A DNA stretch of 20,756 nucleotides from Candidatus Mcinerneyibacteriota bacterium (GTDB lineage: Bacteria > Macinerneyibacteriota > Macinerneyibacteria > Macinerneyibacteriales > DSCS01), in the NCBI GenBank assembly GCA_016937175.1, contig JAFGWL010000029.1, forward strand, positions 1-20,756, in the 5' to 3' direction. The translations under genes and the position numbers were made by a program. Under the pieces are notes generated by a model that ran no database searches, had not been told where the DNA came from, and was given only the letters and a program-made list of their open reading frames with translations. Shown here piece after piece: positions 4,582 through 20,756 of the stretch (positions within the stretch are counted from its first letter, which is position 1; the number at the start of each line of letters is the position of its first letter).

Positions 4582-4600
4582 ATCCTCCTGTCAGTCGTCA

Positions 4601-4619: not shown

Positions 4620-4711
4620 GAACACGGATAAAGAAAGAAGATTAAAGTCCGAAAATCAGGGACAATATTGCCGTAACGAGCTGAGCAAAATCCGTTTTGT
4701 CGATTTTCCTC

Positions 4712-4754: not shown

Positions 4755-4789
4755 GTCCGAATCAAAAAAGCCCTATTTCATGACCGATA

Positions 4790-5011: not shown

Positions 5012-5022
5012 ATTTTTCCTCC

Positions 5023-5940: not shown

Positions 5941-5961
5941 CCGCCCCCCTCTTCTTGAGTC

Positions 5962-6231: not shown

Positions 6232-6901
6232 AGAGAAAACCTCCTTCTTTTTTCTTTGCTTCCACTCCTTCCTTTTCCCGTATCAAAGCCTCTTCACGCT
6301 TTTCCGGGTCAAAACCGGGCCCGAAATGGAGGCCGATCTGATATTCACCCTTAACTCCGGGAAGAAGCCCCATGAGCTCTTCCACAGTGAAAAAATGCGC
6401 TCCCGCGAAAACGCTGCTCTTATCCGTTTGAGCACTTTTTTCATAAAGGCGGGCCCAGGGGCTTTCTTTTGCGATCACGGCTATGACAAGACGCCCCCCT
6501 TTTTTCACAAGACTCCACGCTTTAAGCGCTGCTTTTCGCGGATCGTCCAAAAACTCAAAGGCTGTCACGGAACAGACAAGGTCGAAGGACTCCTCATCAA
6601 AAGGAAGCTCCTTCAGAGATGTATTGACCCACCTGACGGATAATCCCGACATTTCACTTTTCTTCCGGGCGAACTTCAGCATGGGCTCGGAGATATCCAC
6701 TCCAGTGACATCACAACCCCTTTGAGCCAGGAAAAGCGAATAATGTCCTGTCCCGCATCCCAGATCCAGCACCTTCTCCCCCCTTTTCGGGGCGGTACAC
6801 TTGAGAAAAAGATCCTTCTCAGCCTTATCGACCAGAGCTCCCAAAGGGGTCTCAAACCAGCTGTCATAACTTGAAGCCGCCTTTTCATCGAAAAAGGACA
6901 T
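6209..6901 (-). CDS. Class I SAM-dependent methyltransferase (Methyltransf_11 type)
   Basis: A 230-residue cytoplasmic methyltransferase. SAM-binding motif I is VLDLGCGTG (44-52) and the acidic ribose-binding residue is Asp69 in GVDI. The post-I region is LPFDEESFDLVCSV and motif III is VKKGGRLVI (132-140). This resembles UbiE/BioC-like small-molecule enzymes rather than a DNA methyltransferase, because no NPPY or PC motif is seen. AGGAGG lies five bases before the ATG. It is the first gene of the minus-strand operon that continues into the YkoF-like, HNH and PC4-like genes, with a promoter at 6926-6954. The methyl acceptor cannot be named. Confidence 0.9.
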   Translation of the reverse strand: MSFFDEKAASSYDSWFETPLGALVDKAEKDLFLKCTAPKRGEKVLDLGCGTGHYSLFLAQRGCDVTGVDISEPMLKFARKKSEMSGLSVRWVNTSLKELPFDEESFDLVCSVTAFEFLDDPRKAALKAWSLVKKGGRLVIAVIAKESPWARLYEKSAQTDKSSVFAGAHFFTVEELMGLLPGVKGEYQIGLHFGPGFDPEKREEALIREKEGVEAKKKEGGFLCGIWKKM

Positions 6902-6925
6902 CTTTTCCCTCCTGATTCTCTTTTC

Positions 6926-6954
6926 ATCTTACAGGGGAAAGCCCCTCCTGACAA
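6926..6954 (-). promoter_or_regulatory. Promoter of the methyltransferase-YkoF-HNH-PC4 operon
   Basis: On the minus strand TTGTCA (6949-6954) and TAAGAT (6926-6931) are exactly 17 bases apart, 25 bases before the methyltransferase start. The spacer holds AGGGG-AAAG-CCCCT, a 5-bp inverted repeat that could form a hairpin or protein site. Confidence 0.6.
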
Positions 6955-6988
6955 GTCCGTGTGAGAATCAAAATCATCGCAAAAGAGT

Positions 6989-7003
6989 TTCGTTTAACGA
7001 AAT
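6989..7003. promoter_or_regulatory. Perfect palindrome, candidate operator between divergent genes
   Basis: TTTCGTT-T-AACGAAA is a perfect 7-bp inverted repeat around one base. It ends five bases before the TTGACA of the peptidase promoter and about 35 bases upstream of the -35 of the divergent methyltransferase promoter. Size and place suit a dimeric regulator controlling one or both units. The regulator is unknown. Confidence 0.55.
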
Positions 7004-7008
7004 TTTCT

Positions 7009-7035
7009 TGACAAACCTCTTTCTTTTCCTATACT
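7009..7035 (+). promoter_or_regulatory. Probable promoter of the metallopeptidase gene
   Basis: Consensus TTGACA (7009-7014) is followed by TATACT (7030-7035) with a short 15-base spacer; TACTTA two bases further would give 17. The Shine-Dalgarno AAGGAGG (7045-7051) follows at once, so the leader would be very short. Confidence 0.5.
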
Positions 7036-7055
7036 TAAGCAAACAAGGAGGCTTT

Positions 7056-8582
7056 ATGTCGGATCAAAGCAAAAAACTTTTGGAAATAGGAAAAGAGCTT
7101 AAAGAACTCTCTGTAAAATCAGGCCGGCTGGGCTGGGCTTACTACACCACAGGCTATGATTTCGGTATCCAGGAATCCTATGACAAGATCACAGATTACC
7201 TCAAAGATAAAAAACGGTTTGAGACAGTATGCGCTATCCGGGACAAGACAACAGACACTGAAGAAAAGCGCATGGCTGACCTTCTTTTCGATTCCTTTGA
7301 GCGGTTTCACCTCTCTGACGAAGTCACCCGGATCACTAAAGAGATCCAGGTCCTCACCAACAAACTGTCCGGGATCCTGAATACCCACCGCAGCCATATT
7401 GACGGAAAAGAAGTGACCTCCCTGGAGATCCAGCAGATCCTTTCGGAAAGCCCCGACAGAGAACTGCGCAAAAAAGCGTTTCTAGCCCGGGCCCAGGTCA
7501 ACCGCCCCATGCTTGAGGGAGGATTCATCGACCTTATCAAGCTGCGCAAGGAGTATGCCAGAGCCTACGGCGCCGATGATTATGTCTCCATGTCCCTGGA
7601 GAAGCAGGACCTCAACACAGATATCTTCAAAGGATGGGAAGAGTCCGTTCAACAGAAACTCCCCGAGATGAAGAAAGTGCGGGAAAAATATGCCCAAAAA
7701 TACCTTAAAGACAATACCGTCCGGCCCTGGGATGAAGACTATATCCGCGGGCAGCTGGCCCCGGCGTTGAACACTCAGGTCAACATGACAAACTTCTACG
7801 ACTATATCCGCACCTTTTTCGCCCATTTCGGATACAACCTGGATGACTACAACATCACTTACGACCTCTTCTCCCGCCGGAACAAGTCTGAGTGGGGGTA
7901 CAACTTCCCTATTGAAACAGCCAAAGATTCAAGGATCCTGGCCAATATCAAGGACCGCTTCCACGAGTTCCGCGTTCTGCTCCATGAAACGGGACACGCC
8001 CTGCATTCCTACCTGAACGACCCGGAAAAGATCGTCCTCAACATGGGGATCTCCGGGATCATTTCAGAGGGGATCGCCAACCTGTTCGGCGGCTTTCTGA
8101 CCAAACCTCTCTTCTACAGTCAATTTTTCAGCGATAACCTCAAAGAGGTCAAAGAGCAGTTCGCTGCCTTGAAAGAGTGGCAGGAGGCCCACATCCTCCA
8201 ACCTGTAGCGGGAATCCTCTTCGACCAGCGGCTTTACACCGCTTCTATTGAAAATGCAGAAGACATCCATGCCCTTAAATGGAGCCTGGATCAAAATCTG
8301 AACGCCGTAGAGCCCTACGGAGACGAGCCGGTCTGGGCCTATCGCATCCATCATACGACTCATCCCATCTACCTGCACAACTACTTTATGGGGGACGTCA
8401 CCTGCGCCATGCTGGAAGAGACTTTCAAAAAGAGAAGCGGTGTGGAACAGATCGAAGAGAAGCCCGAAGAATTCGCCCGTTTCCTCTATGACGAGGTCAT
8501 CTCGCCTTCGGGGCTCTACCCATATCCTGAACTCTTCAAGAAGATTGCAGGGGAAGAGTTTTCATTAAAATACATCCTGTGA
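7056..8582 (+). CDS. M2/M3-like zinc metallopeptidase (HExxH oligopeptidase)
   Basis: A 508-residue cytoplasmic zinc peptidase of clan MA. The active site is HETGH: H310 and H314 bind zinc and E311 activates water. E338 in GIISEGIANLFGG is the likely third ligand. The first 300 residues are largely helical and include SPDRELRKKAFLARAQVNR (132-150), like the lid region of the M2 peptidyl-dipeptidase and M3 oligoendopeptidase families. M2 versus M3 cannot be settled by eye. No signal peptide is present, so a role in trimming imported peptides is likely. The start is the ATG at 7056, four bases after AAGGAGG. An upstream in-frame ATG at 7008 overlaps the -35 and lacks a ribosome site. It ends at a strong terminator. 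Confidence 0.88.
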   Translation: MSDQSKKLLEIGKELKELSVKSGRLGWAYYTTGYDFGIQESYDKITDYLKDKKRFETVCAIRDKTTDTEEKRMADLLFDSFERFHLSDEVTRITKEIQVLTNKLSGILNTHRSHIDGKEVTSLEIQQILSESPDRELRKKAFLARAQVNRPMLEGGFIDLIKLRKEYARAYGADDYVSMSLEKQDLNTDIFKGWEESVQQKLPEMKKVREKYAQKYLKDNTVRPWDEDYIRGQLAPALNTQVNMTNFYDYIRTFFAHFGYNLDDYNITYDLFSRRNKSEWGYNFPIETAKDSRILANIKDRFHEFRVLLHETGHALHSYLNDPEKIVLNMGISGIISEGIANLFGGFLTKPLFYSQFFSDNLKEVKEQFAALKEWQEAHILQPVAGILFDQRLYTASIENAEDIHALKWSLDQNLNAVEPYGDEPVWAYRIHHTTHPIYLHNYFMGDVTCAMLEETFKKRSGVEQIEEKPEEFARFLYDEVISPSGLYPYPELFKKIAGEEFSLKYIL

Positions 8583-8601
8583 TCTTTCAATAAATAGGAA
8601 C

Positions 8602-8638
8602 AAAAAAAAGCGCTTCTTTACGAAGCGCTTTTTTTTTC
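8602..8638. terminator. Bidirectional rho-independent terminator
   Basis: GCGCTTC (8610-8616), loop TTTAC, GAAGCGC (8622-8628), flanked by a run of A on the left and a run of T on the right. The symmetry lets it end both the plus-strand peptidase transcript and the minus-strand tRNA transcript. Confidence 0.92.
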
Positions 8639-8685
8639 TTTGAGATTCTCATCCCATGGAAAGAAAGGAAAGATGGGTTCCGGTA

Positions 8686-8702
8686 CGGTTTTGCCAAAAC
8701 CG
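8686..8702 (-). other. Hairpin in the tRNA-Ala 3' trailer
   Basis: CGGTTTT-GCC-AAAACCG is a perfect 7-bp stem starting one base past the tRNA discriminator base on the minus strand. It may direct 3'-end processing before the downstream terminator. It has no U-tract of its own. Confidence 0.5.
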
Positions 8703-8703
8703 A

Positions 8704-8776
8704 TGGAGCTAACGAGACTCGAACTCGTGACCTCTTGACTGCCAGTCAAGCGCTCTCCCAGCTGAGCTATAGCCCC
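8704..8776 (-). tRNA. tRNA-Ala (anticodon GGC)
   Basis: On the minus strand all four arms fold. The acceptor is GGGGCTA paired with TAGCTCC, with discriminator A. The D-arm is GCTC/GAGC around AGCTGGGA. The anticodon stem CTTGA/TCAAG holds loop CTGGCAG, giving anticodon GGC for Ala codons GCC/GCU. The T-arm is ACGAG/CTCGT with loop TTCGAGT. The 3' CCA is not encoded (TCG follows the discriminator), so a CCA-adding enzyme is required. The gene is monocistronic, with its own promoter. Confidence 0.97.
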
Positions 8777-8787
8777 CTGCGAAAAAG

Positions 8788-8815
8788 ATTATACGGATAA
8801 TGGACTTCTTGTAAA
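8788..8815 (-). promoter_or_regulatory. Promoter of the tRNA-Ala gene
   Basis: On the minus strand TTTACA (8810-8815) and consensus TATAAT (8788-8793) are 16 bases apart, 11 bases before the mature tRNA 5' end. Confidence 0.7.
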
Positions 8816-8857
8816 GGGAAAAATATTCTTCTGTTTAAAATTCCATCTCAGCTATTT

Positions 8858-8884
8858 CAGCCCGCCGTGTAAAACAGCGGGCTG
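8858..8884 (-). terminator. GC-rich hairpin after the AraC-type regulator gene
   Basis: CAGCCCGC (8858-8865) and GCGGGCTG (8877-8884) form a perfect 8-bp stem with an 11-base loop, starting 12 bases past the regulator's stop. There is no clear U-tract on the minus strand, so termination may be weak or the hairpin may stabilise the mRNA. The whole 8583-8895 gap is covered by this hairpin, the tRNA with its promoter and trailer, and the bidirectional terminator. Confidence 0.45.
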
Positions 8885-8895
8885 TCAAAAGGGAG

Positions 8896-9765
8896 TTATT
8901 CAACGGGAATATAGATATCAAGCTCAGAGTGTTCGGGATCATCATGTCTGAAGCGATGATCGTAACGCTCAAAATCATCTTTTTCAGCAAAGACGAAATC
9001 ACTACGGGGAAACCATCTCTTGTAGATCTCATCATATGTCTCTCCAAGAGTGGCCACAGGGCCTTTGTGAGTAAAGACAGCATATTTCTGAGCGGGCATC
9101 TCCCTGCTGACCATTCCATGGGGAATATGATCAAACTCAGTCACTTCGACACTCACCAGGACATTGAAAGGTGTCTCATCGGTAAATTCGTCCAGGTCTT
9201 TATATTCGCAGATCCCGTAACAGACAGAGGGTGTTTTCTGATGACTGACTTCACGGGCCCGGGGATTAAAATCAGCCCACATCTGCGGAATGGTATTGTT
9301 CTTCAATGTCGTCTCTTTTTCGATACCCACCACTTTAAAAGGCTCCATATAGACGATTTTCGGCTCCATCATTTTTTGACCTCCTTTTTCCGGTATTCCC
9401 GGCCCGGTTTCCATTCTTGCGACCCGGCCGGAAAGAGGAACCACCCCTCTTTTTCTGACCATGCTTGGAGAAGATTCAAACTGTTTTTTAAAGGCCCGTG
9501 TAAAGGCTTCATGGGAATCATACCCCACATCGAGGGCGATACTCAGGATGCTCTCACTGGTCCCGACGATCTTTTCGGCTGCCGTTGTGAGCCGCCTTCC
9601 CCGAATATACATATCAGCTGTCATGCCTGTCAAGCCGTGGAAGATCCGATGAAAATGATAAGGAGAACAGCCCGCTTCCCTGGCCACGTCTTTATAGGAA
9701 AGGGTGAGGGAAAGGTTTTCCTCGATAAAGAGCAGGCTTCTTTCGATCATATCAGAATAATCCAC
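8896..9765 (-). CDS. AraC-family transcriptional regulator with GyrI-like effector domain
   Basis: A 289-residue regulator. Residues 1-105 form the double helix-turn-helix of AraC/XylS: LSYKDVAREAGCSPYHFHRIF (22-42), then ILSIALDVGYDSHEAFTRAFKKQFESSPSMVRK (73-105). After a linker of about 30 residues, residues 133-289 look like the GyrI/Rob-type effector-binding domain: EPKIVYMEPFKVVGIE near the start, GICEY, PAQKYAVFTHKGP and a final ELDIYIPVE. This architecture matches Rob- and SoxS-like activators of drug or stress responses that sense small hydrophobic ligands. The start is GTG at 9765, six bases after GAGGAGG. It is divergent from the lipoprotein gene at 9910, a plausible target with an inverted repeat between them. 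Confidence 0.92.
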   Translation of the reverse strand: MDYSDMIERSLLFIEENLSLTLSYKDVAREAGCSPYHFHRIFHGLTGMTADMYIRGRRLTTAAEKIVGTSESILSIALDVGYDSHEAFTRAFKKQFESSPSMVRKRGVVPLSGRVARMETGPGIPEKGGQKMMEPKIVYMEPFKVVGIEKETTLKNNTIPQMWADFNPRAREVSHQKTPSVCYGICEYKDLDEFTDETPFNVLVSVEVTEFDHIPHGMVSREMPAQKYAVFTHKGPVATLGETYDEIYKRWFPRSDFVFAEKDDFERYDHRFRHDDPEHSELDIYIPVE

Positions 9766-9834
9766 GCTTTTCCTCCTCGCGGGAAGTTTTAACAGCCAAC
9801 CGGATTCATCTTACCATATGAGAAACCCCTGTCT

Positions 9835-9909: not shown

Positions 9910-10971
9910 ATGAAACATGTCCTTTCCCTTGTCATCCCCATCCTTCTCACTGTTTTCCTCGGGTCATCATGCATCCGGAGGCCTCCGGCCGGACACGTGA
10001 CGTTAAAACCCCTCCACATCTGGGAGCTCGAAGGACTCACTAACAGCAATTCTCCCAACTGCGTCACCGTTTATGACAACACGATCTATTATGTCCGGGA
10101 AACCCCTGAGGGGTTTCTTGTGCGCCGTATGGGCCTGGAGGGAACTCTTCTTTCTGAATTCGCTATTCCCCTGGGGAAGGGCCCCGGAGAAGCTCTGCAC
10201 AGCATGGGCCTGGCTATAGATCAGAGCGGCATCTATTTTTGTGATCTTCACCTCAAACGGATCTCCCGTTTTGATTTTGAGGGACGATATCAGGATTGTA
10301 TGGACTTCGGGCCGGAATCGGGAATCATCCTCTATTTTGCCCTCACCGAGTCCTTCATCTATACCACGACTATGGATTCCGTTTTTCTGGGGAAGATCGA
10401 TAAAGCAAGCGGCAGACAAACGGCTTTCATCAGACGCGAAGGCCCTACTGAGACGAAAATCGGAGGAACTTTTACCGGAGGGCCGGTGAAATATGACCCC
10501 TTTAACGGGGAGATCTACATGGGACTTGCGGGTAAGCCTTATACTATTCTACGCTTTGATAAAGATCTGAACCCCCTGGGCCGCTTGACCTATCCCCTCG
10601 AAAAAGAGTTCAAGCCTATCCGTGTCTATCCCGGGCCCCGTCCCGCAGGCGATTTCACCGTCCTGTCTATGGCTGTCACCAGGGAGTATCTCTATGCTCC
10701 TCATATCAGCGCCCGCTATCAGATGAAGGACAACCGCCCCAAAGCCCTCAATTTTTCTCCGGAGATCCTCCGCTTCAACAAAGAGATCTCCCGTGCGGAC
10801 CAGCATTTCACCATTCAGGGCCTGAAATCCATGAAAGGGGAGTTCTCTGTCCTGTATGCTGATGACAGCAGGCTCATCGTTCTGGCCTCTGGAACCGGAG
10901 AGTGGGTTTCTCAACTCTATCCCGAGTCGCCTCCTGAATACACCAATACCGTTTTGATCCTGTCTTTTTAG
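9910..10971 (+). CDS. Lipoprotein with predicted six-bladed beta-propeller
   Basis: A 353-residue exported protein. Residues 1-20 form a signal peptide (MKHVLSLVIPILLTVFL core) ending in GSSC, so Cys21 is the likely lipidated residue. The lipobox is relaxed, with Gly at -3 instead of the usual Leu/Val/Ile. The mature part shows repeated beta-strand blocks, each ending near a turn such as LGKGPGEA (87-94), RISRFDFEGRY and ILRFDKDLNPLGR. The GxGPGE turn is typical of the 6-bladed beta-propeller lipoproteins common in Bacteroidota and some uncultured phyla. No enzymatic residues are recognised; ligand or protein binding outside the membrane is likely. AAAGGAGTC precedes the ATG. A terminator hairpin overlaps its stop codon, separating it from the operon that follows. 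Confidence 0.8.
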   Translation: MKHVLSLVIPILLTVFLGSSCIRRPPAGHVTLKPLHIWELEGLTNSNSPNCVTVYDNTIYYVRETPEGFLVRRMGLEGTLLSEFAIPLGKGPGEALHSMGLAIDQSGIYFCDLHLKRISRFDFEGRYQDCMDFGPESGIILYFALTESFIYTTTMDSVFLGKIDKASGRQTAFIRREGPTETKIGGTFTGGPVKYDPFNGEIYMGLAGKPYTILRFDKDLNPLGRLTYPLEKEFKPIRVYPGPRPAGDFTVLSMAVTREYLYAPHISARYQMKDNRPKALNFSPEILRFNKEISRADQHFTIQGLKSMKGEFSVLYADDSRLIVLASGTGEWVSQLYPESPPEYTNTVLILSF

Positions 10972-11201: not shown

Positions 11202-11684
11202 GTGAAACGTTTCCTCTCTCTTTTTCTTGTAGTACTTCTCTTCTGGTTTTTGTTTACAGGCTCCTTTCACCGTGACGAGATCATCGCAGGCGTGGTGCTT
11301 TCTCTCCTCATCGCTTTAGCGACGAAAAACTACTATCGCTTCAATATCCTGCTGCCTGATCTCCCTGTCCGTATCTTCAAGTTTGTATTCGCCTACCTCC
11401 CCAGGCTTGTCTTCGAGATGGTGAAAGCCAATATCCATATGGCATCCATCGTCCTGAATCCGAAGCTTCCCCTGGATGCAGACATCATTGAAAACAGGAC
11501 CTCTCTTACAGGAGATATCAGCCGCCTTGTCCTGGCCAATTCCATTACATTGACCCCGGGGACCCTGACACTGGATGTCCTTGAAGACACCGTTGTCATC
11601 CACACGGTGAACCGTGCAGCTTACAAAGGAGATAAGACAGCCACAACCCCTTTTGAAAAAGCTGTCAAAGGAGTATTCGAATGA
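11202..11684 (+). CDS. mbxA: Na+/H+ antiporter subunit E, MrpE/MnhE-like (MbxA position)
   Basis: A 160-residue membrane protein of the MrpE family, the usual length. Two hydrophobic segments lie in the first 45 residues (FLSLFLVVLLFWFLFTGSF and IIAGVVLSLLIALAT) and a third near 62-80. The soluble C-terminal half carries the family motif LANSITLTPGTLTLDV. In Mrp, MBH and MBX complexes this subunit is part of the sodium-translocating module. The start is GTG at 11202, directly after AAAGGAGGTCA; no ATG fits. It is the first gene of the operon, and its stop overlaps the next ATG (ATGA). Confidence 0.93.
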   Translation: MKRFLSLFLVVLLFWFLFTGSFHRDEIIAGVVLSLLIALATKNYYRFNILLPDLPVRIFKFVFAYLPRLVFEMVKANIHMASIVLNPKLPLDADIIENRTSLTGDISRLVLANSITLTPGTLTLDVLEDTVVIHTVNRAAYKGDKTATTPFEKAVKGVFE

Positions 11685-11938
11685 CCACCTATATTTTTTG
11701 GCTGCTGATTGCAGCGGGACTCATGCTCTCCATCCTCCGCATCATCCTGGGCCCGGGAAAAGAAGACCGGGTCGCCGCCCTGGATACGGCTAATATCATC
11801 GGAACGGGGATCATTCTCTTGTTGGCTTTACAGTTTCACTCGCCCTTATATCTGGATGTCGCTCTCGTCTATGCCGTTCTGGGCTTTATGGAGACAGTCG
11901 TGATCGCCAGAATAATGGAAAACAGTAAGGAGCTCTAA
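11681..11938 (+). CDS. mbxB: Na+/H+ antiporter subunit F, MrpF/MnhF-like (MbxB position)
   Basis: An 85-residue protein with three predicted membrane helices. Family features include ILGPGKEDRVAALDTAN (22-38), the polar loop between the first two helices, and DVALVYAVLGFMETVVIAR. MrpF is a core small subunit of the sodium-pumping module. The ATG overlaps the MrpE stop by four bases, and its own stop shares one base with the next start (TAATG). This tight coupling fits fixed-stoichiometry assembly. Confidence 0.93.
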   Translation: MTTYIFWLLIAAGLMLSILRIILGPGKEDRVAALDTANIIGTGIILLLALQFHSPLYLDVALVYAVLGFMETVVIARIMENSKEL

Positions 11939-12234
11939 TGCACACAGCAGGTCAGATCTTCATACTTATCGGGACCTTTTTCATGTTCCTGGGAGGGTTG
12001 GGTGTCTTCAGGATGCCCGATGTCTATAACAGACTCCAGGCAGGGACAAAGGCAACGACGCTTGGCTTTATGAGTATCGCCCTTGGCGTCGGATTAAGTC
12101 AACCCCAGTGGCTTCTCAAAGCCCTGGTCCTTATCGCTTTTATCGCCTTTACAAACCCGGTGAGCAGCTCTGTCTTGGCCAGGGCGGCCATGAAACGCGG
12201 CATCCCCGCAAGGAAGGTGACCAGACATGATTAA
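11938..12234 (+). CDS. mbxC: Na+/H+ antiporter subunit G, MrpG/MnhG-like (MbxC position)
   Basis: A 98-residue, three-helix membrane protein. The signature RMPDVYNRLQAGTKATTLG (25-43) is nearly invariant in MrpG. Pro and Gly residues break the third helix near FTNPVSSSVLARAA. With subunits E and F it completes the EFG sodium-translocating set. It overlaps the next gene by eight bases. Confidence 0.94.
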   Translation: MHTAGQIFILIGTFFMFLGGLGVFRMPDVYNRLQAGTKATTLGFMSIALGVGLSQPQWLLKALVLIAFIAFTNPVSSSVLARAAMKRGIPARKVTRHD

Positions 12235-12472
12235 TCCGGGACTCTCCTCACTTTTCATCTTTCTGGTCTTTGTGGCTTCCCTCCTGGCTGTGGAGGCCAA
12301 AAAAGCCTTCCGCGCCGTCCTCTTCATGTCTCTGGCCGGGCTCCTCACCGCCGTGATCTTTGTCCTCTGGAAAGCCCCGGATGTGGCCATGACTGAAGCA
12401 GCCATCGGAGCCGGATTTACCACATTCCTCTTCCTCATGGCTCTGAATAGGATCAGGGGAAAGGAGAAATAG
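12227..12472 (+). CDS. mbxD: MbhD-like antiporter subunit (DUF4040; MrpA C-terminal/MrpB type)
   Basis: An 81-residue, three-helix membrane protein matching the DUF4040 domain, found at the end of MrpA or as stand-alone MbhD/MbxD. The motif KAPDVAMTEAAIGAGFTTFLFLMAL (48-72) is the family hallmark; its Asp and Glu lie in the membrane and are thought to help ion transfer. It starts inside the end of the previous gene and ends one base before the next ATG. Confidence 0.9.
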   Translation: MINPGLSSLFIFLVFVASLLAVEAKKAFRAVLFMSLAGLLTAVIFVLWKAPDVAMTEAAIGAGFTTFLFLMALNRIRGKEK

Positions 12473-12473
12473 G

Positions 12474-13223
12474 ATGAAAAAAGTTATCGCGCTCCTTCTT
12501 TTCCTGGGTCTGCTCTTTTTTCTGGGGACAGGCCTTGAGCAGGGATTAAAGCTCGGCGACCGGAACACGTTAGCCGGCAAAGCCGGAGAGGCTTATCTGA
12601 AACGGACGGTGAACTCAGCCGATCCCTCTGCATCACCCAGCCAGGTGGAATACGGCAGCGAAACTGACATCGAAGAGAATGCCGCCAACACATTGACTGC
12701 CGTCGTTGTGGGATACAGGTCTTTTGATACCCTGGGTGAAGTCACTGTCCTCTTCCTCGCAGCCACAGGGGTCATGGCCCTCTTTTTTGCATCCGGAAAA
12801 AAGAAACGCCTCGCCCTGGCCAAACCCAATTTTATACTGTCGGTCTCCTCAGGTTTTTTGCTGCCTCTCATCATCCTCTTCGGCGCCTACGTCTTCACCC
12901 ATGGCCATCTCACCCCCGGAGGAGGATTTCAGGGCGGGACCATCATCGCCGCCGCTGTTCTTCTCCTCTATATGGCGGGAAACGCCTACAAAGCGCCTGC
13001 CACTGGCCTTAAGGTCCTTGAAGGGTTTTCAGGAGCCGGTTATCTGCTTATCGGCCTTGCAGGCCTGCTTCTCACAGGATTTTTCCTTAACAATTTTCTA
13101 CCTTCGGGAAAGATGGGCGCCCTTTTCAGCGCAGGGGTCATCCCTGTGGTCTACATCCTCATAGGCCTGAAAGTCAGCGCCGAACTCAGCGGTATTGTAT
13201 CAGATTACATGGGAGAAGATTAA
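12474..13223 (+). CDS. mbxF: Fused MbhE-MbhF antiporter subunit (MrpB-like), MbxF position
   Basis: A 249-residue membrane protein joining two subunits that are separate in MBH hydrogenases. Residues 1-105 are MbhE-like: one N-terminal helix, a loop of about 50 residues outside the membrane, then NTLTAVVVGYRSFDTLGEVTV (72-92). Residues 118-245 are MrpB/MbhF-like, with HGHLTPGGGFQGG (143-155) and four helices. The same fusion defines MbxF in archaeal mbx operons, which is why no separate E gene is expected. The reading frame is continuous, so this is a true fusion rather than a sequencing artefact. The ATG is one base after the previous stop. Confidence 0.9.
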   Translation: MKKVIALLLFLGLLFFLGTGLEQGLKLGDRNTLAGKAGEAYLKRTVNSADPSASPSQVEYGSETDIEENAANTLTAVVVGYRSFDTLGEVTVLFLAATGVMALFFASGKKKRLALAKPNFILSVSSGFLLPLIILFGAYVFTHGHLTPGGGFQGGTIIAAAVLLLYMAGNAYKAPATGLKVLEGFSGAGYLLIGLAGLLLTGFFLNNFLPSGKMGALFSAGVIPVVYILIGLKVSAELSGIVSDYMGED

Positions 13224-13224
13224 T

Positions 13225-13593
13225 ATGGGACATGAATGGTTATCCTTATGGAGTTTTCTCTACGGCCCCCTGTCCATCTTCCTGGTGGGCCTTTACGGAC
13301 TGTTAACACAAAAAAACCTGATCAAAATGGCAATTTCCATTAACATCATGGATTACGGAGTGAATCTCTTCATCATCTCGCTGGGCTATGTGCCCTCTGC
13401 TGAGGCCCCGATCTATACAGACGCGGTGAAAACTTATCTTCCCGTATTTGCGGACCCGCTCCCCCAGGCCCTGGTCCTCACAGCCATCGTGATCTCTGTC
13501 GCCGTGACTGCATTTATTCTGGCCCTGACCATCAAGATCCACAGTCAATACGGAACGACAGACCTGACAAAACTCGGGGAGATGGAATTATGA
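13225..13593 (+). CDS. mbxG: Na+/H+ antiporter subunit C, MrpC/NuoK-like (MbxG position)
   Basis: A 122-residue protein with three membrane helices, homologous to NuoK of complex I. The signature DPLPQALVLTAIVI lies near residues 76-89. The start is the ATG at 13225, one base after the preceding stop, with GGGAGAAG as ribosome site; an ATG at 13195 would lie inside the fused subunit. The conserved membrane Glu of NuoK helix 2 is not obvious: NIMDYGVNLFII carries Asp instead. The stop overlaps the next ATG (ATGA). Confidence 0.9.
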   Translation: MGHEWLSLWSFLYGPLSIFLVGLYGLLTQKNLIKMAISINIMDYGVNLFIISLGYVPSAEAPIYTDAVKTYLPVFADPLPQALVLTAIVISVAVTAFILALTIKIHSQYGTTDLTKLGEMEL

Positions 13594-15032
13594 TCATGCA
13601 AAACCCTGTCCTTCTCATAGCCGTGCCCCTGCTTCTGGCCTTTCTCATCCCGGTTTTCTCCTCCTTCTTCAAGGGAGCTGTCCGTTTCATTCCCGTCCTG
13701 GCGGGGGGATTCAATGTGATCGCCGCCGCGCTTCTTATTCCCCAGGCATCGGGAGATGTGGCAGTGACGGAGATCGGGGGGTGGGCGTCCGCTTACGGCA
13801 TCAGCCTCCTGTTCAGTTCTCAGATAGGATATATGATCCTGGCGGTGAACCTCACGGCTCTTCTGGCTATCTTCTATTATATCCTGAATGAAAGAGACCT
13901 GGGAAGCCCCCTGGCCTACCCCATCGCCTTTACCCTGGCGCTCAGCGGGGCCAACGGCATGATCATGACCGGAGACCTCTTCAACCTTTTCGTCTTCATG
14001 GAGATGACCGCCATCGCCGGTTATATCATCGCTGTCCATAAAAAAGGCTACTTGGGGACATTCCGGTTTGTGGTCCTCTCTTCGGTGGGCTCGGCCTTTT
14101 TCCTCATCGCCACAGCCTCACTCTACAATGCCACGGGATTCCTGAATATGGCCATGGCGGGAAAGAACCTTGGCGCCCTGTCAACGCCCTTTATCTCCGT
14201 TATCAGCGTTCTTTTCATCATGGCATTGAGCAGCGAAGCAGAACTCCTTCCCCTGAACGGCTGGGTCGCTCCGGTCTACAGGGAATCAAGCGGAGCGGGA
14301 AGCGTCTTCTTCGCCTCTGTCTTTTCGGGAGCAGCCCTCTTTGCCGTGATCAAGGTCATGCTTATCGTGTTCGGCATTAATTATGCTTATGTCCATCAGG
14401 GCCTGTTGGTTTTGGGGCTGGTCACGCTGGCTGCGGGAGAAGCAGCTGCGTTCAAACAGTCCAACCTCAAAAAAATGGTGGCCTACTCCTCCATTGCCCA
14501 ATCGGGGCTCATCATTGCCGCTGTGGCGGCCGCCATGCGTTCAGGAGTGCTTCACAACGGATTGTTCAACGCAGCTCTTTTCCAACTCATCAACAACATC
14601 CTGGCCAAAGCCCTCGTTCTCCTGGGGATCGCCCTGCTGGGACAGGCCACATTAAAAGAGATCGGCGGAGCAGGGACAAGGAAAAAGTGGCTCGGGGTGT
14701 TCATCTCGGCGGGAGTCCTCTCCCTCATCGGGATGCCCGGCTTTGCGGGATTCTGGAGCAAACTCTTCCTCGTCAGGGAGCTTGTGGGAAACAGGATGTT
14801 CGTCTTCACCCTGGTCTTTCTCTTGGCTGCTCTCTTCGAAGCCTATTATTATCTGAGGTTCCTGCAGTCCCTCTTTTTAGGGAAAAGCACAACTGCAGCT
14901 TCTCTGCCCAAAACCTCATGGGTGACCTATATCCTGCTTTTCGTCCTGGCCGCGCTCATCATCCTGATCGGTTTCGCCCCTGATGTTATAATCCGGGCCG
15001 TTTCCGGCCTCAGCCTGGGAGGTGTCCTATGA
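13590..15032 (+). CDS. mbxH: Antiporter-like subunit, MrpD/NuoN type (MbxH position)
   Basis: A 480-residue membrane protein with about 14 helices, of the proton-conducting antiporter-like family of complex I. The helix-5 Glu is E138 (FVFMEMT), the helix-8 Lys is K255 (AVIKVML), and the helix-12 Lys is K340 (NILAKALVLLG). The helix-7 Lys is missing: the usual KAGLFPLHSW block reads EAELLPLNGW, so Glu216 takes its place and His becomes Asn223. The family block SNLKKMVAYSSIAQSG (291-306) is intact. That pattern suggests a modified ion path, which is inference. The gene is coupled to both neighbours through ATGA overlaps. Confidence 0.93.
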   Translation: MIMQNPVLLIAVPLLLAFLIPVFSSFFKGAVRFIPVLAGGFNVIAAALLIPQASGDVAVTEIGGWASAYGISLLFSSQIGYMILAVNLTALLAIFYYILNERDLGSPLAYPIAFTLALSGANGMIMTGDLFNLFVFMEMTAIAGYIIAVHKKGYLGTFRFVVLSSVGSAFFLIATASLYNATGFLNMAMAGKNLGALSTPFISVISVLFIMALSSEAELLPLNGWVAPVYRESSGAGSVFFASVFSGAALFAVIKVMLIVFGINYAYVHQGLLVLGLVTLAAGEAAAFKQSNLKKMVAYSSIAQSGLIIAAVAAAMRSGVLHNGLFNAALFQLINNILAKALVLLGIALLGQATLKEIGGAGTRKKWLGVFISAGVLSLIGMPGFAGFWSKLFLVRELVGNRMFVFTLVFLLAALFEAYYYLRFLQSLFLGKSTTAASLPKTSWVTYILLFVLAALIILIGFAPDVIIRAVSGLSLGGVL

Positions 15033-16882
15033 GTACTTTGATTTTCATCGGGCTTGCTGCATCCCTTCTCATCTATGCAGCCGCCCGCCTCAGCCGCCCG
15101 CTGGGAGCGCTTCTGCTTATGCTTCTGAGCGGAGCGGGGGTAGCTGCTTTGATCCTCTCCTGGGGAAAGGGATTTACAGAGACCCTGCCTCTGGGAAATG
15201 GGCTTGAACTGACCTTCAGCCTCTCCACATTCAATTGGCCCTTTTTACTCCTGGGCGCTTTTGTGCTCTTCATCGTCTCCCTCTTTGCTGTCAACGCCCT
15301 GAAAGAGATGGAGCACGGAGCCTCTTTCCTTGCGCTTCTCACTCTCATCGGGGTGAGTGTTATGGGCGTCTTTGGAGCTTATGATTTTCTGACGCTTTTC
15401 ATCTTTTTCGAACTCATGACCTGGACCTCCTTTTTCCTTGTCTCCATGGGAAAAACGGGGGCCAAAAAGGCGGCTCTCATCTATGCCTTTATGAGTATGA
15501 TCGCAGCCTACCTGATGATCAGCGCCATCATGATGATCGCTCAATATACGGGAAGCTTCTCTTATTCTGACTTTATGGGGATGTACGAAGCTATGCCTTC
15601 GGGGATCAGGACCACGGTGGTCATCTTTTTCCTCGCGGCTGCTCTCATCAAGGGAGGGATCTATCCGGTCCACTTCTGGCTGCGTTCGGCGCACGGAGAT
15701 GCCCCTCATGTCTTTTCCCCTGTCCTCTCGGGGCTACTGGTGAAATACGGCTACTATTCCGCCTTTCTCTTCCTCCTCTTTTTCCCGGTGATGGTAGCCA
15801 CAAAAGCCGGGATCACACAGGTGACCTCTACAGACGGGCCCAATTTCATCCTGGCCTTTATCGGAGGGTTGAGCATCATGGCGGGCACCGTGGCGGCGAT
15901 CCTCCAGAGTGACGCTAAAAAACTGGTGGCATTCTCGTCGGTGAGCCACGGGGGATATGTTATCCTGGCCCTGGCCTACGGCACGAATATGGCCGTGGCC
16001 GGCGGCCTGGCCCATATCTGGGTCCATGTCCTCACAGCGCTGGGGATGTTCCTCTCCATGGGGGCTGTCGCCTACCGGACAGGGACCACCGATATGGACG
16101 AGATGGGCGGGCTCATCAAAAATATGCCCGTGACCTTTACCGTCTATCTCATCGCCATCATCTCGGTAGCGGGGATCCCCCCTCTGGCGGGGTTTGTCTC
16201 CAAATGGATGATCATCCAGGCCCTGGCCGCCAACGGAAGCTACATCCTGGCCTTCATGGCCTTCTTCGGATCCATCGGTTCCTTTATGTATGTCTTTCGG
16301 CCCCTAGCTACGATCTTTCTAGGTCAGCGCCCTCATAAGTTTAAAGATGTCAGGGAAGTCCCCTTCTTCATGCAGCTTGCCATGCTCATCGTCACACTAC
16401 TCACGATCCTCCTGGGTATCATGCCCTATTACCTCCTGAAACCCTTCACCCGGATCCAGGAGTTCATCGGAATGGTGCCTGTGAAGATCGGGTTCTCCAC
16501 GGTCTACTCGGCTCTGACCCAGCTGGACATGATGCTGATCTTTTTGGTCTTCGGCGGCGGGTTCCTTCTGGCACTGGTCATCTTTCTTCTTTTCTCAAAG
16601 CCCACAAAAGTGGAGCAGCATGAGGTCTACACCTCGGGAGAGATCGCACCCGAGATCAGCACGACTCCGGAGATCTACCACTTCTCCAAAGGCTACTACC
16701 GCTCTTTCGGTCGCCTCTTTTCACGGTGGCCCTCGGTGGAAGCCTGGTACCATAAGGGAGCGGCCTACATCTCCCAGTTCTTTGAGATCATCGAACAGTC
16801 ACTCTTCAAACAGTCCATCAACGGGTTTATCTGGCTGGCCGTTGTCGTCATGGCCGTTTTGATGGCAGTAAGGTGGTTCTGA
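15029..16882 (+). CDS. mbxH': Second antiporter-like subunit with C-terminal extension (MbxH' position)
   Basis: A 617-residue MrpD/NuoL-like subunit. The helix-5 Glu is E128 (FFELM), the helix-7 Lys is K208 in IKGGIYPVHFWLRSAH, and a helix-8 Lys is K239. The helix-12 Lys is not at its place: HIWVHVLTALGMF has Ala/Thr there. A further segment of about 90 residues (525-617) follows the core: a TSGE motif, then an amphipathic stretch around KGYYRSFGRLFSRWPSVEAW and a final membrane helix. This suits the lateral arm seen in NuoL and in MBX H'. Having two antiporter-like subunits distinguishes MBX from MBH. Its stop lies one base before the next ATG. Confidence 0.92.
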   Translation: MSTLIFIGLAASLLIYAAARLSRPLGALLLMLLSGAGVAALILSWGKGFTETLPLGNGLELTFSLSTFNWPFLLLGAFVLFIVSLFAVNALKEMEHGASFLALLTLIGVSVMGVFGAYDFLTLFIFFELMTWTSFFLVSMGKTGAKKAALIYAFMSMIAAYLMISAIMMIAQYTGSFSYSDFMGMYEAMPSGIRTTVVIFFLAAALIKGGIYPVHFWLRSAHGDAPHVFSPVLSGLLVKYGYYSAFLFLLFFPVMVATKAGITQVTSTDGPNFILAFIGGLSIMAGTVAAILQSDAKKLVAFSSVSHGGYVILALAYGTNMAVAGGLAHIWVHVLTALGMFLSMGAVAYRTGTTDMDEMGGLIKNMPVTFTVYLIAIISVAGIPPLAGFVSKWMIIQALAANGSYILAFMAFFGSIGSFMYVFRPLATIFLGQRPHKFKDVREVPFFMQLAMLIVTLLTILLGIMPYYLLKPFTRIQEFIGMVPVKIGFSTVYSALTQLDMMLIFLVFGGGFLLALVIFLLFSKPTKVEQHEVYTSGEIAPEISTTPEIYHFSKGYYRSFGRLFSRWPSVEAWYHKGAAYISQFFEIIEQSLFKQSINGFIWLAVVVMAVLMAVRWF

Positions 16883-16883: not shown

Positions 16884-17777
16884 ATGGCATTGATCGGAAA
16901 AATCGTCTTGTTTATTGTGGGTGCTTTTGTGTTCCAGGTGGCCCTGAGCGGGTTTTCCCGCAAGGTCATCGCCCGGATCCAAAAGCGGAGAGGCCCTGTC
17001 TTCTGGCAGAATTTCTACGATATCGGCAAACTCTTCTTCAAAAAGACCTCCATCTCCCACGGTTTTATCTTTGATTTCGGCGTCTGGATGGCCTTCGGCG
17101 GGACGGTAGCCACCCTTCTCTTCGTCCCGGTGGGCCCCTATTCGGTCTTTCCCGGACAGACCAATTTCATCGTCATCATCTATCTACTGGCCATCGGGTC
17201 ATTGGGGATGGCCATGAGCGCTGTCGGTTCGGCAAATCCTTTCGCCTCTATAGGCATCTCCCGGGCGTTGACGCAGATGTTCGGTTATGATGTCCCCTTT
17301 GCGCTTACTGTAGTCATCATGATCTATGTCCACAGGACATCCCAGGTGGCAAAACTGGCGGCGGTCCAGTCGGACATCGGCTGGCACCTGTGGGTGATGC
17401 CCCTGAGCGCCCTTGTGGCCTTTATCGCCCTCATGGCCATGTTGGGGAAAAAGCCCTTTGACACCCCCATCGCTCCCGCCGAGATCGCGTCAGGCCCTCT
17501 GGTGGAATACAGCGGGAAATACCTGGGCATGCTCATGGTCCAGCACGAATTTGCCACCTTTGTGGAAGTGGGCCTCTTTGTCAACCTCTTCCTCGGAGGG
17601 GGCAGCACCCTTCTCATCTATCTTGTCAAATATATCATCGTCTATCTCCTCACCGTGATCATTTCAGCGCTCATGGCCCGATTCCGGGTGGAGCAGACGG
17701 TGGCTTTTTTCTGGAAGTGGCCCCTGGTCCTGGTCTTTATCCAGGCTTTGATCATAATCGGAATAGGGATAAGGTGA
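16884..17777 (+). CDS. mbxM: NuoH/MbhM-like membrane anchor subunit (MbxM position)
   Basis: A 297-residue membrane protein with about eight helices, homologous to NuoH, which joins the electron-transfer arm to the ion-pumping arm. Conserved cytoplasmic loops are RIQKRRGPVFWQNFYD (31-46) and KKPFDTPIAPAEIASGPLVEYSGKYLGM (189-216), rich in the acidic residues that form the E-channel. The Mbh/Ech type lacks complex I's quinone-specific residues, but that cannot be checked here by eye. The gene starts one base after the previous stop and is followed by the NuoB-like gene four bases on. Confidence 0.94.
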   Translation: MALIGKIVLFIVGAFVFQVALSGFSRKVIARIQKRRGPVFWQNFYDIGKLFFKKTSISHGFIFDFGVWMAFGGTVATLLFVPVGPYSVFPGQTNFIVIIYLLAIGSLGMAMSAVGSANPFASIGISRALTQMFGYDVPFALTVVIMIYVHRTSQVAKLAAVQSDIGWHLWVMPLSALVAFIALMAMLGKKPFDTPIAPAEIASGPLVEYSGKYLGMLMVQHEFATFVEVGLFVNLFLGGGSTLLIYLVKYIIVYLLTVIISALMARFRVEQTVAFFWKWPLVLVFIQALIIIGIGIR

Positions 17778-17781: not shown

Positions 17782-18309
17782 ATGGACTCACGTACCATGT
17801 GGGAAAAGGTGAAAGATATTACACGGGGGCATTCCCTCTGGATGCTCTACTACTGCACAGGGTGCGGCGCCATCGAGCTGCCGCCGACCATGACCTCGCG
17901 GTTTGATATGGAGCGATTCGGCATCGGCCCCATGGCCACTCCCCGGCAGGCGGATATCCTTCTGGTAACCGGTTATCTGAGCACCAAGACACTCCGCCGT
18001 GTCATCTATACCTATGAACAGATGCAGTCCCCCAAATGGCTTGTGGGATTCGGCTCCTGTACCCTGAACGGAGGGATCTATCACGACTCTTACGCCACCA
18101 TCAACCAGCTTGACCAGTATCTCCCCGTGGACCTCTATCTGGCCGGGTGCATGCCCCGTCCGGAAGTCATCATCAAGGGATTCAAACAGCTTATGGAAAT
18201 GATCAAAACCGGAGAAGCCGACGGCTGGAAACAGTATCAGGACAACAGAGAATGGTATCGCAAGAACCAGAAAAAGGCCCTCGGCGACCTTCTCTATACG
18301 ACACGGTAA
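17782..18309 (+). CDS. mbxJ: NuoB/MbhJ-like [4Fe-4S] subunit (MbxJ position)
   Basis: A 175-residue peripheral subunit that carries the terminal (N2-like) [4Fe-4S] cluster. The four ligands appear to be C25 and C28 in YYCTGCGAIE, C93 in GSCTLNGG and C123 in AGCMPRPE. The CxxC spacing is of the hydrogenase (Mbh/Ech) type; complex I NuoB has adjacent cysteines. The last 45 residues are basic and soluble. It should pass electrons between the ferredoxin-like domain of the last gene and the vestigial active site in MbxL. It is separated by 12 bases from the NuoC-like gene. Confidence 0.93.
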   Translation: MDSRTMWEKVKDITRGHSLWMLYYCTGCGAIELPPTMTSRFDMERFGIGPMATPRQADILLVTGYLSTKTLRRVIYTYEQMQSPKWLVGFGSCTLNGGIYHDSYATINQLDQYLPVDLYLAGCMPRPEVIIKGFKQLMEMIKTGEADGWKQYQDNREWYRKNQKKALGDLLYTTR

Positions 18310-18321: not shown

Positions 18322-18840
18322 ATGTTACAGAAAGATTTCATTGCAAAGATCGAACAGGAGTTCGGGCTTGATCCCGCACACATCATAGCCGTAGCCGAAA
18401 AAAAGCTCGCCATTAACGTGGACAGCGGAGAGGCCCTCTCCTTTCTCATTTATCTGAAAAACAATGATTTTATCCAGCTGTCCCTCATCACCGCCGTGGA
18501 CTGGATCGATGAGAACCGGTTTGAACTGGTCTACACCCTGGTCTCCTGGGAAAAGAACCTCACGGTCTCGGTAAGCACCTTTATTCCCCGGGATAACCCT
18601 GTAATGGTCTCAGTCCGCCATATCTGGCCTACAGCCAAATATTACGAGTGGGATATCAACGAATTTTTCGGGATCATCTTTTCCGGCCATCCAGAGATGG
18701 GAAACCCCCTCTTTTTGGAAGGGTGGAGTGAAAAACCGCCCATGCGCAAAGATTTCGATCCACAGGCCTACTCCTATGAACGCTTTCCCTCGCGAAAGTA
18801 CGATTACAAGGTCGAAAACAAGGGGAAGGTGATAGAATGA
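18322..18840 (+). CDS. mbxK: NuoC/MbhK-like subunit (MbxK position)
   Basis: A 172-residue soluble subunit without cofactors, which braces the NuoD-like protein. The family motif is WPTAKYYEWDINEFFGIIFSGHPEMGNPLFLEGW (102-135), the counterpart of the ERExYDMFGIxFxGHPDxRR block of complex I. GGGAGG lies six bases before the ATG. The stop overlaps the next ATG (ATGA). Confidence 0.92.
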   Translation: MLQKDFIAKIEQEFGLDPAHIIAVAEKKLAINVDSGEALSFLIYLKNNDFIQLSLITAVDWIDENRFELVYTLVSWEKNLTVSVSTFIPRDNPVMVSVRHIWPTAKYYEWDINEFFGIIFSGHPEMGNPLFLEGWSEKPPMRKDFDPQAYSYERFPSRKYDYKVENKGKVIE

Positions 18841-19937
18841 AAGAAGTCAAGCTTTTCCACGGCCCGAACCACCCCGGGATGCACGGAAACTTCTCGGTAC
18901 ACCTGACGGTGGACGGGGACACCGTAGTCTCCGCCCGCCCCAATCCGGGAATGCTTCACAGGGGGTTTGAAAAGCTCATGGAACGGCGCTCCTGGATCCA
19001 GAACATCGCCCTCATCCCCCGGATCTGCGTCCCCGAACCTGACATCAACGAAGCGGTCTACTCCATGGGTGTGGAAGCCCTGGCGGGCATAGAGATCCCC
19101 GAGCGGGCCAAATACATCCGCGTCATCGTTCTGGAGATCGCCCGCATCATGATCCATCTCATGTCCATCGGAGGTATCGGCGGGCCCACAGGGCTCTATA
19201 CAGCCCCCAACTGGGGCATCGCCGACCGGGATCTCTTCCTGGACATCTTTGAAAAACTTACCGGGCACCGCGTCTATCATATGTATATCGTCCCGGGAGG
19301 CGTCCGTCAGGACATCCCCGCCGATCTCCTCAAAGAGATCGAAGAGAAGCTGGATGACCTGGAAAAACGACTCGTGGAATACAGAGAGCTCATCTTCGAC
19401 CACCCTATCCTCCACAAACGCCTCAAGGGGATGGCCCCTCTTCCCAAAGAACTGGCCCTGGACTGGGGGATCACCGGCATCGGGATCCGCTCCAACGGGT
19501 TCGACTACGATATCAGAAAATACGATCCCTACCTGGTCTACGACAAGCTCTCCTTCGACGTCCCGGTGTGTGACAAGAGCGACGCCTATTCGCGCCTTTT
19601 GCTGAAATTCAGGGAGATCCCCCAGAGCATGCGCATAATCCGCCAGGCCATCGCGGATATGCCCGCCGGCAAGGTGCGGATCAAACTCCCCGGAAACGCC
19701 CTCAAGTGGAAGGTCCCCAAAGGAGCTGTCTACTCCCGCCTGGAATCGTCCCGCGGCGAATACGGCTACTATATGGTCTCCAACGGAGGTCTGACCCCCT
19801 ACCGGGTCCATGTGCGCGGAGCTTCCTATCCTCAGGGTTTGTACGGGGTGGAAGCAGGCCTTCCGGGAACACGTCTGGAAGATGTGGCTGTCTGGCTGGA
19901 CACCATGGGGGTCTGCGCCCCCGAATTCGACAGGTAA
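18837..19937 (+). CDS. mbxL: NuoD/MbhL-like subunit with a vestigial NiFe site (MbxL position)
   Basis: A 366-residue large-subunit homologue of NiFe hydrogenases and NuoD. The first NiFe motif, RxCxxC, reads PRICVPEPD: C64 is kept and the second Cys is E67. The last motif, DPCxxC, reads GVCAPEFDR at the very end: C360 is kept and the second Cys is E363. A NiFe centre needs four Cys ligands, so hydrogenase activity is not expected. No C-terminal tail follows, so there is nothing for a maturation protease to remove, and no hyp genes are in view. GGPTGLYTAPNWG and IRSNGFDYDIRKYDPY are the conserved core. Archaeal MBX acts on sulfur compounds; the acceptor here is unknown. Confidence 0.93.
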   Translation: MKEVKLFHGPNHPGMHGNFSVHLTVDGDTVVSARPNPGMLHRGFEKLMERRSWIQNIALIPRICVPEPDINEAVYSMGVEALAGIEIPERAKYIRVIVLEIARIMIHLMSIGGIGGPTGLYTAPNWGIADRDLFLDIFEKLTGHRVYHMYIVPGGVRQDIPADLLKEIEEKLDDLEKRLVEYRELIFDHPILHKRLKGMAPLPKELALDWGITGIGIRSNGFDYDIRKYDPYLVYDKLSFDVPVCDKSDAYSRLLLKFREIPQSMRIIRQAIADMPAGKVRIKLPGNALKWKVPKGAVYSRLESSRGEYGYYMVSNGGLTPYRVHVRGASYPQGLYGVEAGLPGTRLEDVAVWLDTMGVCAPEFDR

Positions 19938-19947: not shown

Positions 19948-20756
19948 ATGATGAAAGAGCCTAAAATAAACCTTCTCTCCCCTTTAAAGGGGGTCAAATA
20001 CCTCTTTAAAAAACCGGTGACCCTCAACGTCCCCAAAGAGGAGCGGGAAGCCGCGGACCGGTACAGGGGATTTCATACCAACGACTGGGAGACGTGTATC
20101 GGTTGCGGAAGCTGTTCGGAGATCTGCCCAACCGGGGCCATCAGCATGGAAAAGATCCCAGGGCTGGAGATCGATCCCGTAGAGGGGAAGACCGACGAGC
20201 GTCCGGTGATCGATTACGGCCGCTGCTGCTGGTGCGCCTTCTGCGTGGACATCTGCACCACCGGATCCCTGAAGATGAGCAAGGACTATGTCTTCATCGA
20301 CCCCAACCCTGATAAGTTCATCTACATCCCTGATGAAGAGGGAATCAATCATAATCAGCCTGAAGAGGGCTACCGGAGAAATGAAGACACTGACCTTCTG
20401 GAGCTGGAGCGCCGCCCCATGGAGCAGGCCCCGGCAGAAGAACGGAAGGGCTCCTTCATGGAATATGTGAAAGGGTTCAGCAAAGAAGAGGCCATGCGAG
20501 AAGCGGCCCGATGTGTGGAGTGCGGGATCTGCACCAACACCTGCCCGGCTCACATGAACATCCCCGAGTATATCAACGCCGTATTTGAAGACGACCTGAA
20601 AGAGGCCTCGGAATACCTCTACAAGACCAACCCCCTCCCGGCAGTCTGCGGACGGGTCTGCACCCATAAGTGCGAAGACGTCTGCTCCATCGCCCACCGG
20701 GGCGAGGCCATCTCCATCCGCTGGCTGAAACGCTACATCGTGGATAACACGCCTGA
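19948..20756 (+). CDS. mbxN: MbxN/NuoI-like ferredoxin domain fused to GltD/NfnL-like oxidoreductase, 3' end off window
   Basis: The first 269 residues of a fusion still open at the window end. Residues 40-110 hold two [4Fe-4S] sites of the NuoI type: C50, C53, C56 and C60 (CIGCGSCSEICP), then C93, C96, C99 and C103 (CCWCAFCVDIC). A charged linker of about 60 residues (125-180) follows. From residue 184 the GltD/NfnL N-terminal domain begins: C189, C192, C195 and C199 in RCVECGICTNTCPAHMNIPEYI, then NPLPAVCGRVCTHKCEDVC (229-246; C234, C238, C242, C246). The first set is two residues tighter than the usual GltD CxxCx4CxxxCP. The FAD and NADPH motifs would lie past the end. Two ATGs (19948, 19951) follow AAAGGAG. 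I infer electron exchange between ferredoxin, NAD(P)H and the Mbx core. Confidence 0.9.
   Translation, partial: MMKEPKINLLSPLKGVKYLFKKPVTLNVPKEEREAADRYRGFHTNDWETCIGCGSCSEICPTGAISMEKIPGLEIDPVEGKTDERPVIDYGRCCWCAFCVDICTTGSLKMSKDYVFIDPNPDKFIYIPDEEGINHNQPEEGYRRNEDTDLLELERRPMEQAPAEERKGSFMEYVKGFSKEEAMREAARCVECGICTNTCPAHMNIPEYINAVFEDDLKEASEYLYKTNPLPAVCGRVCTHKCEDVCSIAHRGEAISIRWLKRYIVDNTP

Follow-up and report, generated by a model that had tools for sequence, protein, structure and literature searches.

We describe an mbx operon of Mrp/complex I type whose last gene encodes a NuoI-like (MbxN) iron-sulfur subunit fused in frame to a GltD-like flavoprotein. The Mbx complex may be an NAD(H)-linked, probably Na+-translocating oxidoreductase of sulfane or a similar compound, with the fusion protein as the subunit through which electrons would enter or leave; judging from the sequences compared here, we give this reading a probability of about one half. 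The fusion most likely lets NADH rather than ferredoxin feed the pump, or be made by it. The fusion itself is not new, since its family is catalogued and the T. maritima complex is known. As far as we can tell, the new elements are an NAD(H)-type signature, the grouping of the fusions in a single clade, the spread of the fusion into sulfur-oxidiser lineages with an MBS-like MbxJ, and a ferritin-like partner.

The mbx operon and its fusion gene

The window, meaning the whole stretch of 20,756 bp that was analysed, is an entire contig (G000:C41) of a 1.88-Mb genome that is 98.7% complete. The nearest named relative in our survey is Candidatus Mcinerneyibacterium aminivorans (L049, recorded as "same order", its locus identical to that in G002). 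Upstream of the fusion gene lie, in order, mrpE, F, G, A', B, C and D, followed by nuoL-, nuoH-, nuoB-, nuoC- and nuoD-like genes. An Mrp module and NuoL/H/B/C/D/I-like subunits therefore share one operon, the arrangement by which MBX/MBS systems are recognised:

11202..13593, + strand: mrpE, F, G, A C-terminal part, B and C homologs (Mrp module); open reading frames, order kept in related loci
13590..15032, + strand: mbxH (MrpD-like antiporter); operon position conserved
15029..16882, + strand: mbxH' (NuoL/antiporter-like); operon position conserved
16884..17777, + strand: mbxM (NuoH-like); operon position conserved
17782..18309, + strand: mbxJ (NuoB-like; CTGC motif as in MBS); MbsJ match and alignment
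18322..18840, + strand: mbxK (NuoC-like); operon position conserved in related loci
18837..19937, + strand: mbxL (NuoD-like, no NiFe site; closest solved chain MBS MbsL); chain match and alignment
19948..20754, + strand: MbxN(NuoI)-GltD fusion gene, cut at its 3' side where the contig ends (269 of ~610 codons present)

The fusion frame (19948-20754, 269 codons) begins with an ATG behind a GGAG ribosome-binding site, 10 nt past the stop of the nuoD-like gene, and remains open to the contig end, with the stop codon lying beyond the sequence. Its features are as follows:

20095..20127, + strand: NuoI-type [4Fe-4S] motif 1 (C50, C53, C56, C60), invariant in 48/48 relatives
20224..20256, + strand: NuoI-type [4Fe-4S] motif 2 (C93, C96, C99, C103; an extra C94 is variable)
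20293..20460, + strand: charged linker of ~65 residues joining the NuoI-like and GltD-like domains, stop-free; a medium-confidence stretch in the predicted model of a relative
20512..20685, + strand: eight-Cys GltD/DPYD-type domain (Fer4_20; C189, C192, C195, C199, C234, C238, C242, C246)

A preliminary description of this DNA had seen in one frame a pair of NuoI-type motifs followed by a charged linker and a domain with eight Cys, and had proposed a domain search. Both the sequence and that search bear the reading out: Pfam returned Fer4 and Fer4_20 (9.5e-31), and residues 4-269 align with positions 6-272 of the NCBIfam model PRK13984 (611 positions) at 1e-132, unbroken across the linker. The window copy scores 443 bits over its 269 residues, and since the contig ends there the family cut-off of 946 bits is unreachable for it. 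The missing 3' half did not turn up in its own genome when searched for with the C-terminal half of a relative, the best match being only a separate NfnL on contig C57 (36%), and a Pyr_redox_2 survey of the genome found no half-gene at any contig edge. A contig-edge Pyr_redox_2 match on C24 was considered as the missing half and rejected, its frame being thioredoxin-reductase-like. We assume that an assembly gap explains the absent half.

A catalogued and widespread family

The earlier impression that such a direct fusion is less described did not hold up, because NCBIfam already contains a curated equivalog with its two-domain architecture (NF010590 / PRK13984, "putative oxidoreductase", 611 aa). 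The cut-off of this model, 946 bits, is reached by neither half alone; the nearest relative of the window protein (L089/L048) scores 950 bits. Among 14 control genomes T. maritima gave the sole PRK13984 match, above 946 bits, and since half of the model yields only ~440 bits, T. maritima must carry both halves in frame. This supports the link to Thermotogales noted earlier: the family, the T. maritima protein included, has the same architecture as the window copy, which differs in being cut by the contig end.

A survey of genomes for the same fusion, as had been suggested, proved productive. Scanning GTDB contigs gave 40 fusion loci and scanning 290 genomes gave 14 genomes with the fusion, for ~50 loci overall in seven phyla, with hosts in Macinerneyibacteriota, Bacillota, Spirochaetota, Mycoplasmatota (complete chromosome CP074575.1), Myxococcota and Pseudomonadota. 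Most relatives read as one frame of ~590-760 aa, contig ends truncating a few, and the fusion is nearly always the last gene of an mrpEFGA'BCD-nuoLHBCD operon. Wherever the upstream sequence suffices a nuoD-like gene precedes it, except in L070 (Thiomargarita), where the fusion occurs without one; in L082 the two genes are separated by a gap of 845 bp. Intact relatives, PRK13984 and operon order thus agree with the original assignment, in which a GltD/NfnL-fold flavoprotein is joined to a NuoI (MbxN) subunit within an mbx operon. Because the same single frame recurs in assemblies made independently, including a complete chromosome, neither chance nor the misassembly at the linker that had been raised as a concern can explain the family.

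The mbx locus is accessory, as a 99%-complete genome of the same genus has neither an mbxJ match nor a PRK13984 match. Our full-text searches turned up no paper that describes what the NuoI-GltD fusion does; it may be discussed by Schut et al. 2013 (FEMS Microbiol Rev).

Cofactor sites of the fusion protein

All 16 cluster cysteines are invariant in 48/48 family sequences. In the region that would lie past position 20756 of the window, where FAD and NAD(P) motifs had been predicted, relatives carry the FAD motif GxGxxG/S (47/47) and a second dinucleotide motif GxGxxA/G/S (45/45); that part of the prediction stands for the relatives, whereas the window's own 3' half was not found in the genome. 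The NAD(P) motifs of the relatives also support the earlier proposal of an NAD(P)H site on this subunit as the point where electrons enter or leave.

Where the second strand of the NAD(P) domain ends, 38 of the 45 sequences have A/S/C-L-E, four YRR, two ARK and one ALQ; NfnL and NfnABC have YRR at this position. In two-dinucleotide flavoproteins, a glutamate in place of the lost arginines speaks for NADH rather than NADPH. L048 and L049, the closest relatives of the window protein, are of the LE type, and NAD(H) is our best guess for the window copy, from this one motif as read in its relatives. In one subclade (L095, L096, L097 and L098) the NADPH-type YRR is kept and the short insert before YRR is absent; these proteins may form a version linked to NADP(H).

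The protein of L048, modelled with AlphaFold2 (pLDDT 83, pTM 0.80), superposes on NfnL over residues 148-606 (Z ~41, rmsd 1.9-2.1 Å), with its C-terminal part matching NfnL/GltD at Z ~40. The fusions share with NfnL, GltD and NfnABC-StnABC the fold and the plan of eight Cys, FAD and NAD(P) sites. They also keep the equivalent of Tm R187, the N5-bonding Arg of bifurcating NfnL (PMC6405883), in 47/47 proteins having this region, before which the window copy ends. A tree built from the GltD-like halves places every fusion in a single clade (support 97/96), apart from the branch holding the NfnL of T. maritima, of P. furiosus and of the genome itself; the lone row labelled "other" inside the fusion clade (L086) is a fragment whose contig begins within the gene. 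A single origin of the GltD half would be the simplest reading. Membership of the fusion in NfnL, implied by the earlier term "NfnL-type", was rejected on this tree and on the absence of an NfnS partner from the operon; the fusions further differ from NfnL by shorter Cys spacings and, in most, by -LE- in place of YRR.

In one bacterial MBX operon (L145, G183:C1) the NuoI, of 193 aa, is not fused, and the next 4.6 kb downstream contain no GltD gene, which marks the GltD module as an addition to a core able to work without it.

The acceptor side

The window operon has the same Mrp/complex I plan as P. furiosus MBS/MBX (6U8Y), including the MbxJ CTGC motif. Window MbxL scores 350 bits against P. 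furiosus MbsL versus 251 against Nqo4 of complex I, window MbxJ 235 bits against MbsJ versus 121 against the next chain, and the NuoI half of a relative has its closest solved chain in MBS (6U8Y, 117 bits). In MBS the proximal [4Fe-4S] cluster is held by just three cysteines via a shortened motif, sulfane is reduced at this cluster, and the complex I residues H38 and Y87 are both absent from MbsL (PMC7684303). The short TGC motif and the three ligand Cys of the p-cluster are kept in all aligned fusion-linked MbxJ, and in the window they occur as the CTGC motif of MbsJ with its three ligands; an additional Cys follows the TGC motif in MbxJ of a few Clostridia and in the Mycoplasmatota sequence. 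Window MbxL has no NiFe site, its C64 and C360 aligning with MbsL C85 and C385, two of the four NiFe Cys. The equivalent of Nqo4 Y87 is never Tyr in aligned MbxL (Val in the window). The acceptor side thus looks like that of MBS, a sulfane reductase, and not like that of a quinone-reducing complex I. Our reservation concerns H38, whose equivalent is absent from P. furiosus MbsL but is His in window MbxL and many relatives, with other residues in others.

The input side departs from both models. P. furiosus MbsN is unfused and takes electrons from ferredoxin, whereas its counterpart in the window family is joined to a flavoprotein that bears NAD(P)-site motifs. Respiratory complex I (NuoA-N) has homologous B, C, D, H, I and L subunits and likewise a pyridine-nucleotide input module; the fusion operon, however, lacks NuoEFG, its GltD-like input module sits on NuoI, and Nqo4 Y87 is not conserved.

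Proposed reaction

In the NAD(H)-linked sulfane oxidoreductase that we favour, a hydride from NADH (NADPH in the small subclade) would reduce FAD, and electrons would then pass over four clusters, first two of GltD type and then two in MbxN, before reaching the proximal cluster of MbxJ with its three Cys. There they would be delivered to polysulfide/sulfane or a similar S-S substrate in a chamber beside MbxM, where the chemistry would drive the antiporter-like membrane arm, as in MBS. The final gradient would probably be Na+; the c-subunits of the genome's own ATP synthase have ESTGIY plus a second carboxylate, and we take ESTxxY to be a motif typical of Na+ rings.

The potentials of NADH (~-320 mV) and polysulfide (~-260 mV) are close, and this small span implies that the reaction should be reversible and move few ions per electron pair. 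If so, NADH could be formed from sulfane at the cost of the ion gradient in sulfur-oxidising Proteobacteria. Small span and reversibility fit T. maritima, a sulfur reducer, as well as those fusion-bearing lineages that are related to sulfur oxidisers (Thiocapsa, Thiothrix, Parasulfuritortus, Thiobacillaceae and Thiomargarita). T. maritima mbxA is up 4.4-fold with S0, and its MBX is depicted as a sulfur reductase that depends on ferredoxin (PMC9431562); for the Mrp-Mbx of the Riftia symbiont, function and direction are given as unknown (PMC11636981). Counting against the NAD(H)-linked sulfane reading are YRR in 4/45 sequences, the published ferredoxin donor for T. maritima MBX, the H38-equivalent His of the window and the lack of a recognised sulfur gene beside the operon.

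The fusion also shows a second means by which the complex I scaffold can be given a pyridine-nucleotide input module, its GltD half having one apparent origin. An NAD(H)-type module predicts pyridine-nucleotide-dependent, reversible sulfane chemistry with ion transport, unlike the ferredoxin-donor picture of T. maritima MBX. A broader version, which we consider possible though doubtful, is that the whole fusion class consists of NADH-linked reversible ion-translocating sulfane oxidoreductases, forms of complex I whose input module is GltD-like and whose iron-sulfur cluster reacts with sulfur, sulfur-reducing in anaerobes and running in reverse in sulfur-oxidising Proteobacteria, where they would make NADH directly from sulfane sulfur, aided by the linked ferritin-like protein.

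Alternative explanations

Ferredoxin and NAD(P)H might instead both feed MbxN, by confurcation or as alternative donors, with electrons leaving at MbxJ to a sulfur compound. We find this unlikely: the operon has no NfnS-like second flavin branch and no retained ferredoxin dock is evident, even though the bifurcation-type Arg is conserved, ferredoxin is the assumed donor for T. maritima MBX (PMC9431562), and the unfused bacterial MBX of G183 indicates that the core can work without the GltD module.

More improbable is the function originally suggested for this operon, an ion-pumping ferredoxin:NAD(P) oxidoreductase doing the job of Rnf, in which ferredoxin would dock on MbxN or MbxJ/L and NAD(P)+ be reduced at the GltD module. 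MbxN is indeed the ferredoxin-side subunit in MBS (PMC7684303), and the bifurcating Arg R187 (PMC6405883) persists in the 47/47 fusions with the region. The same genome, however, has Rnf twice and Nfn once. On contig C37 (L117) an RnfCDGE operon is accompanied, at the limit of the sequence read, by the first part of RnfA; C9 (L118) carries a second set of RnfDGE and a partial RnfA-like frame, and C57 an NfnL beside an NfnS C-terminus. With its [FeFe]-hydrogenase beside a HydB/NuoF-like gene, the genome has a redox set much like that described for T. maritima (Rnf, Nfn, [FeFe]-hydrogenase). Because Rnf is present, the replacement of Rnf is rejected. Complex I-type enzymes couple redox to pumping at MbxJ/L; with both substrates on one peripheral subunit, electrons would never reach MbxJ/L and would bypass the coupling chamber. 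The catalytic-type three-Cys cluster of MbxJ would also be pointless unless it were an acceptor or donor site.

Less credible still is an acceptor other than sulfur, either another disulfide or a small molecule (e.g. quinone in quinone-containing Proteobacteria), in which case the complex would be an alternative form of complex I that takes its input through a GltD module. The H38-equivalent His in several MbxL, the window's included, would suit such an acceptor, as would the loss of the non-ligand C25-equivalent Cys from five proteobacterial MbxJ and of the C385-equivalent from several proteobacterial MbxL; against this, the Y87-equivalent is never Tyr and MbxJ is MBS-like in every aligned sequence. 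That the fusion is an assembly or annotation artefact joining two genes, as the contig ending inside the gene might suggest, has practically no chance of being right, given the same in-frame fusion in ~50 independent loci, a complete chromosome among them, and a 611-position NCBIfam model spanning both halves.

Neighbouring genes and ferritin-like partners

The genes at 550-9792 of the window are unrelated to the mbx operon:

550-2157: gamma-glutamyltranspeptidase
2809-4581, - strand: CitMHS-type transporter
5023-5940, - strand: HNH endonuclease
6209-6901, - strand: methyltransferase
7008-8582: M3 peptidase
8896-9765, - strand: AraC/GyrI-like regulator

A 353-aa open reading frame directly upstream of mrpE (9910-10971) had no Pfam match at 1e-4, and no sulfur gene was recognised adjoining the mbx operon. 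Elsewhere in the genome (G000:C28:17563-18293, L124), the ATP synthase c-subunits are encoded by one double-hairpin and one single-hairpin gene, all with ESTGIY.

A ferritin-like/rubrerythrin gene directly follows the fusion in six Proteobacteria loci and one Myxococcota locus:

L070:6642-7121, ferritin-like gene
L074:2278-2787, ferritin-like gene
L075:11892-12377, ferritin-like gene
L077:7068-7571, ferritin-like gene
L079:11859-12353, ferritin-like gene
L082:4517-5038, ferritin-like gene
L083:11969-12472, ferritin-like gene

All three of the proteins scanned (L075, L077 and L083) match PF02915, and in L077 and L082 the gene overlaps the fusion by 4 nt. Spirochaete fusions and one unclassified fusion (L054, L056, L059, L061, L062, L063, L066, L068 and L069) carry a helical C-terminal tail of ~145 aa (residues ~600-750). 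Aligned with hhalign, eight of these tails match the free ferritin-like proteins with 97.5% probability (E 8e-12), the metal ligands being partly lost. We read the tailed proteins as NuoI-GltD-ferritin-like triple fusions. In Clostridia, recurrent neighbours of ~300 aa without a Pfam match accompany the fusion locus, and a MatE transporter adjoins four fusion loci.
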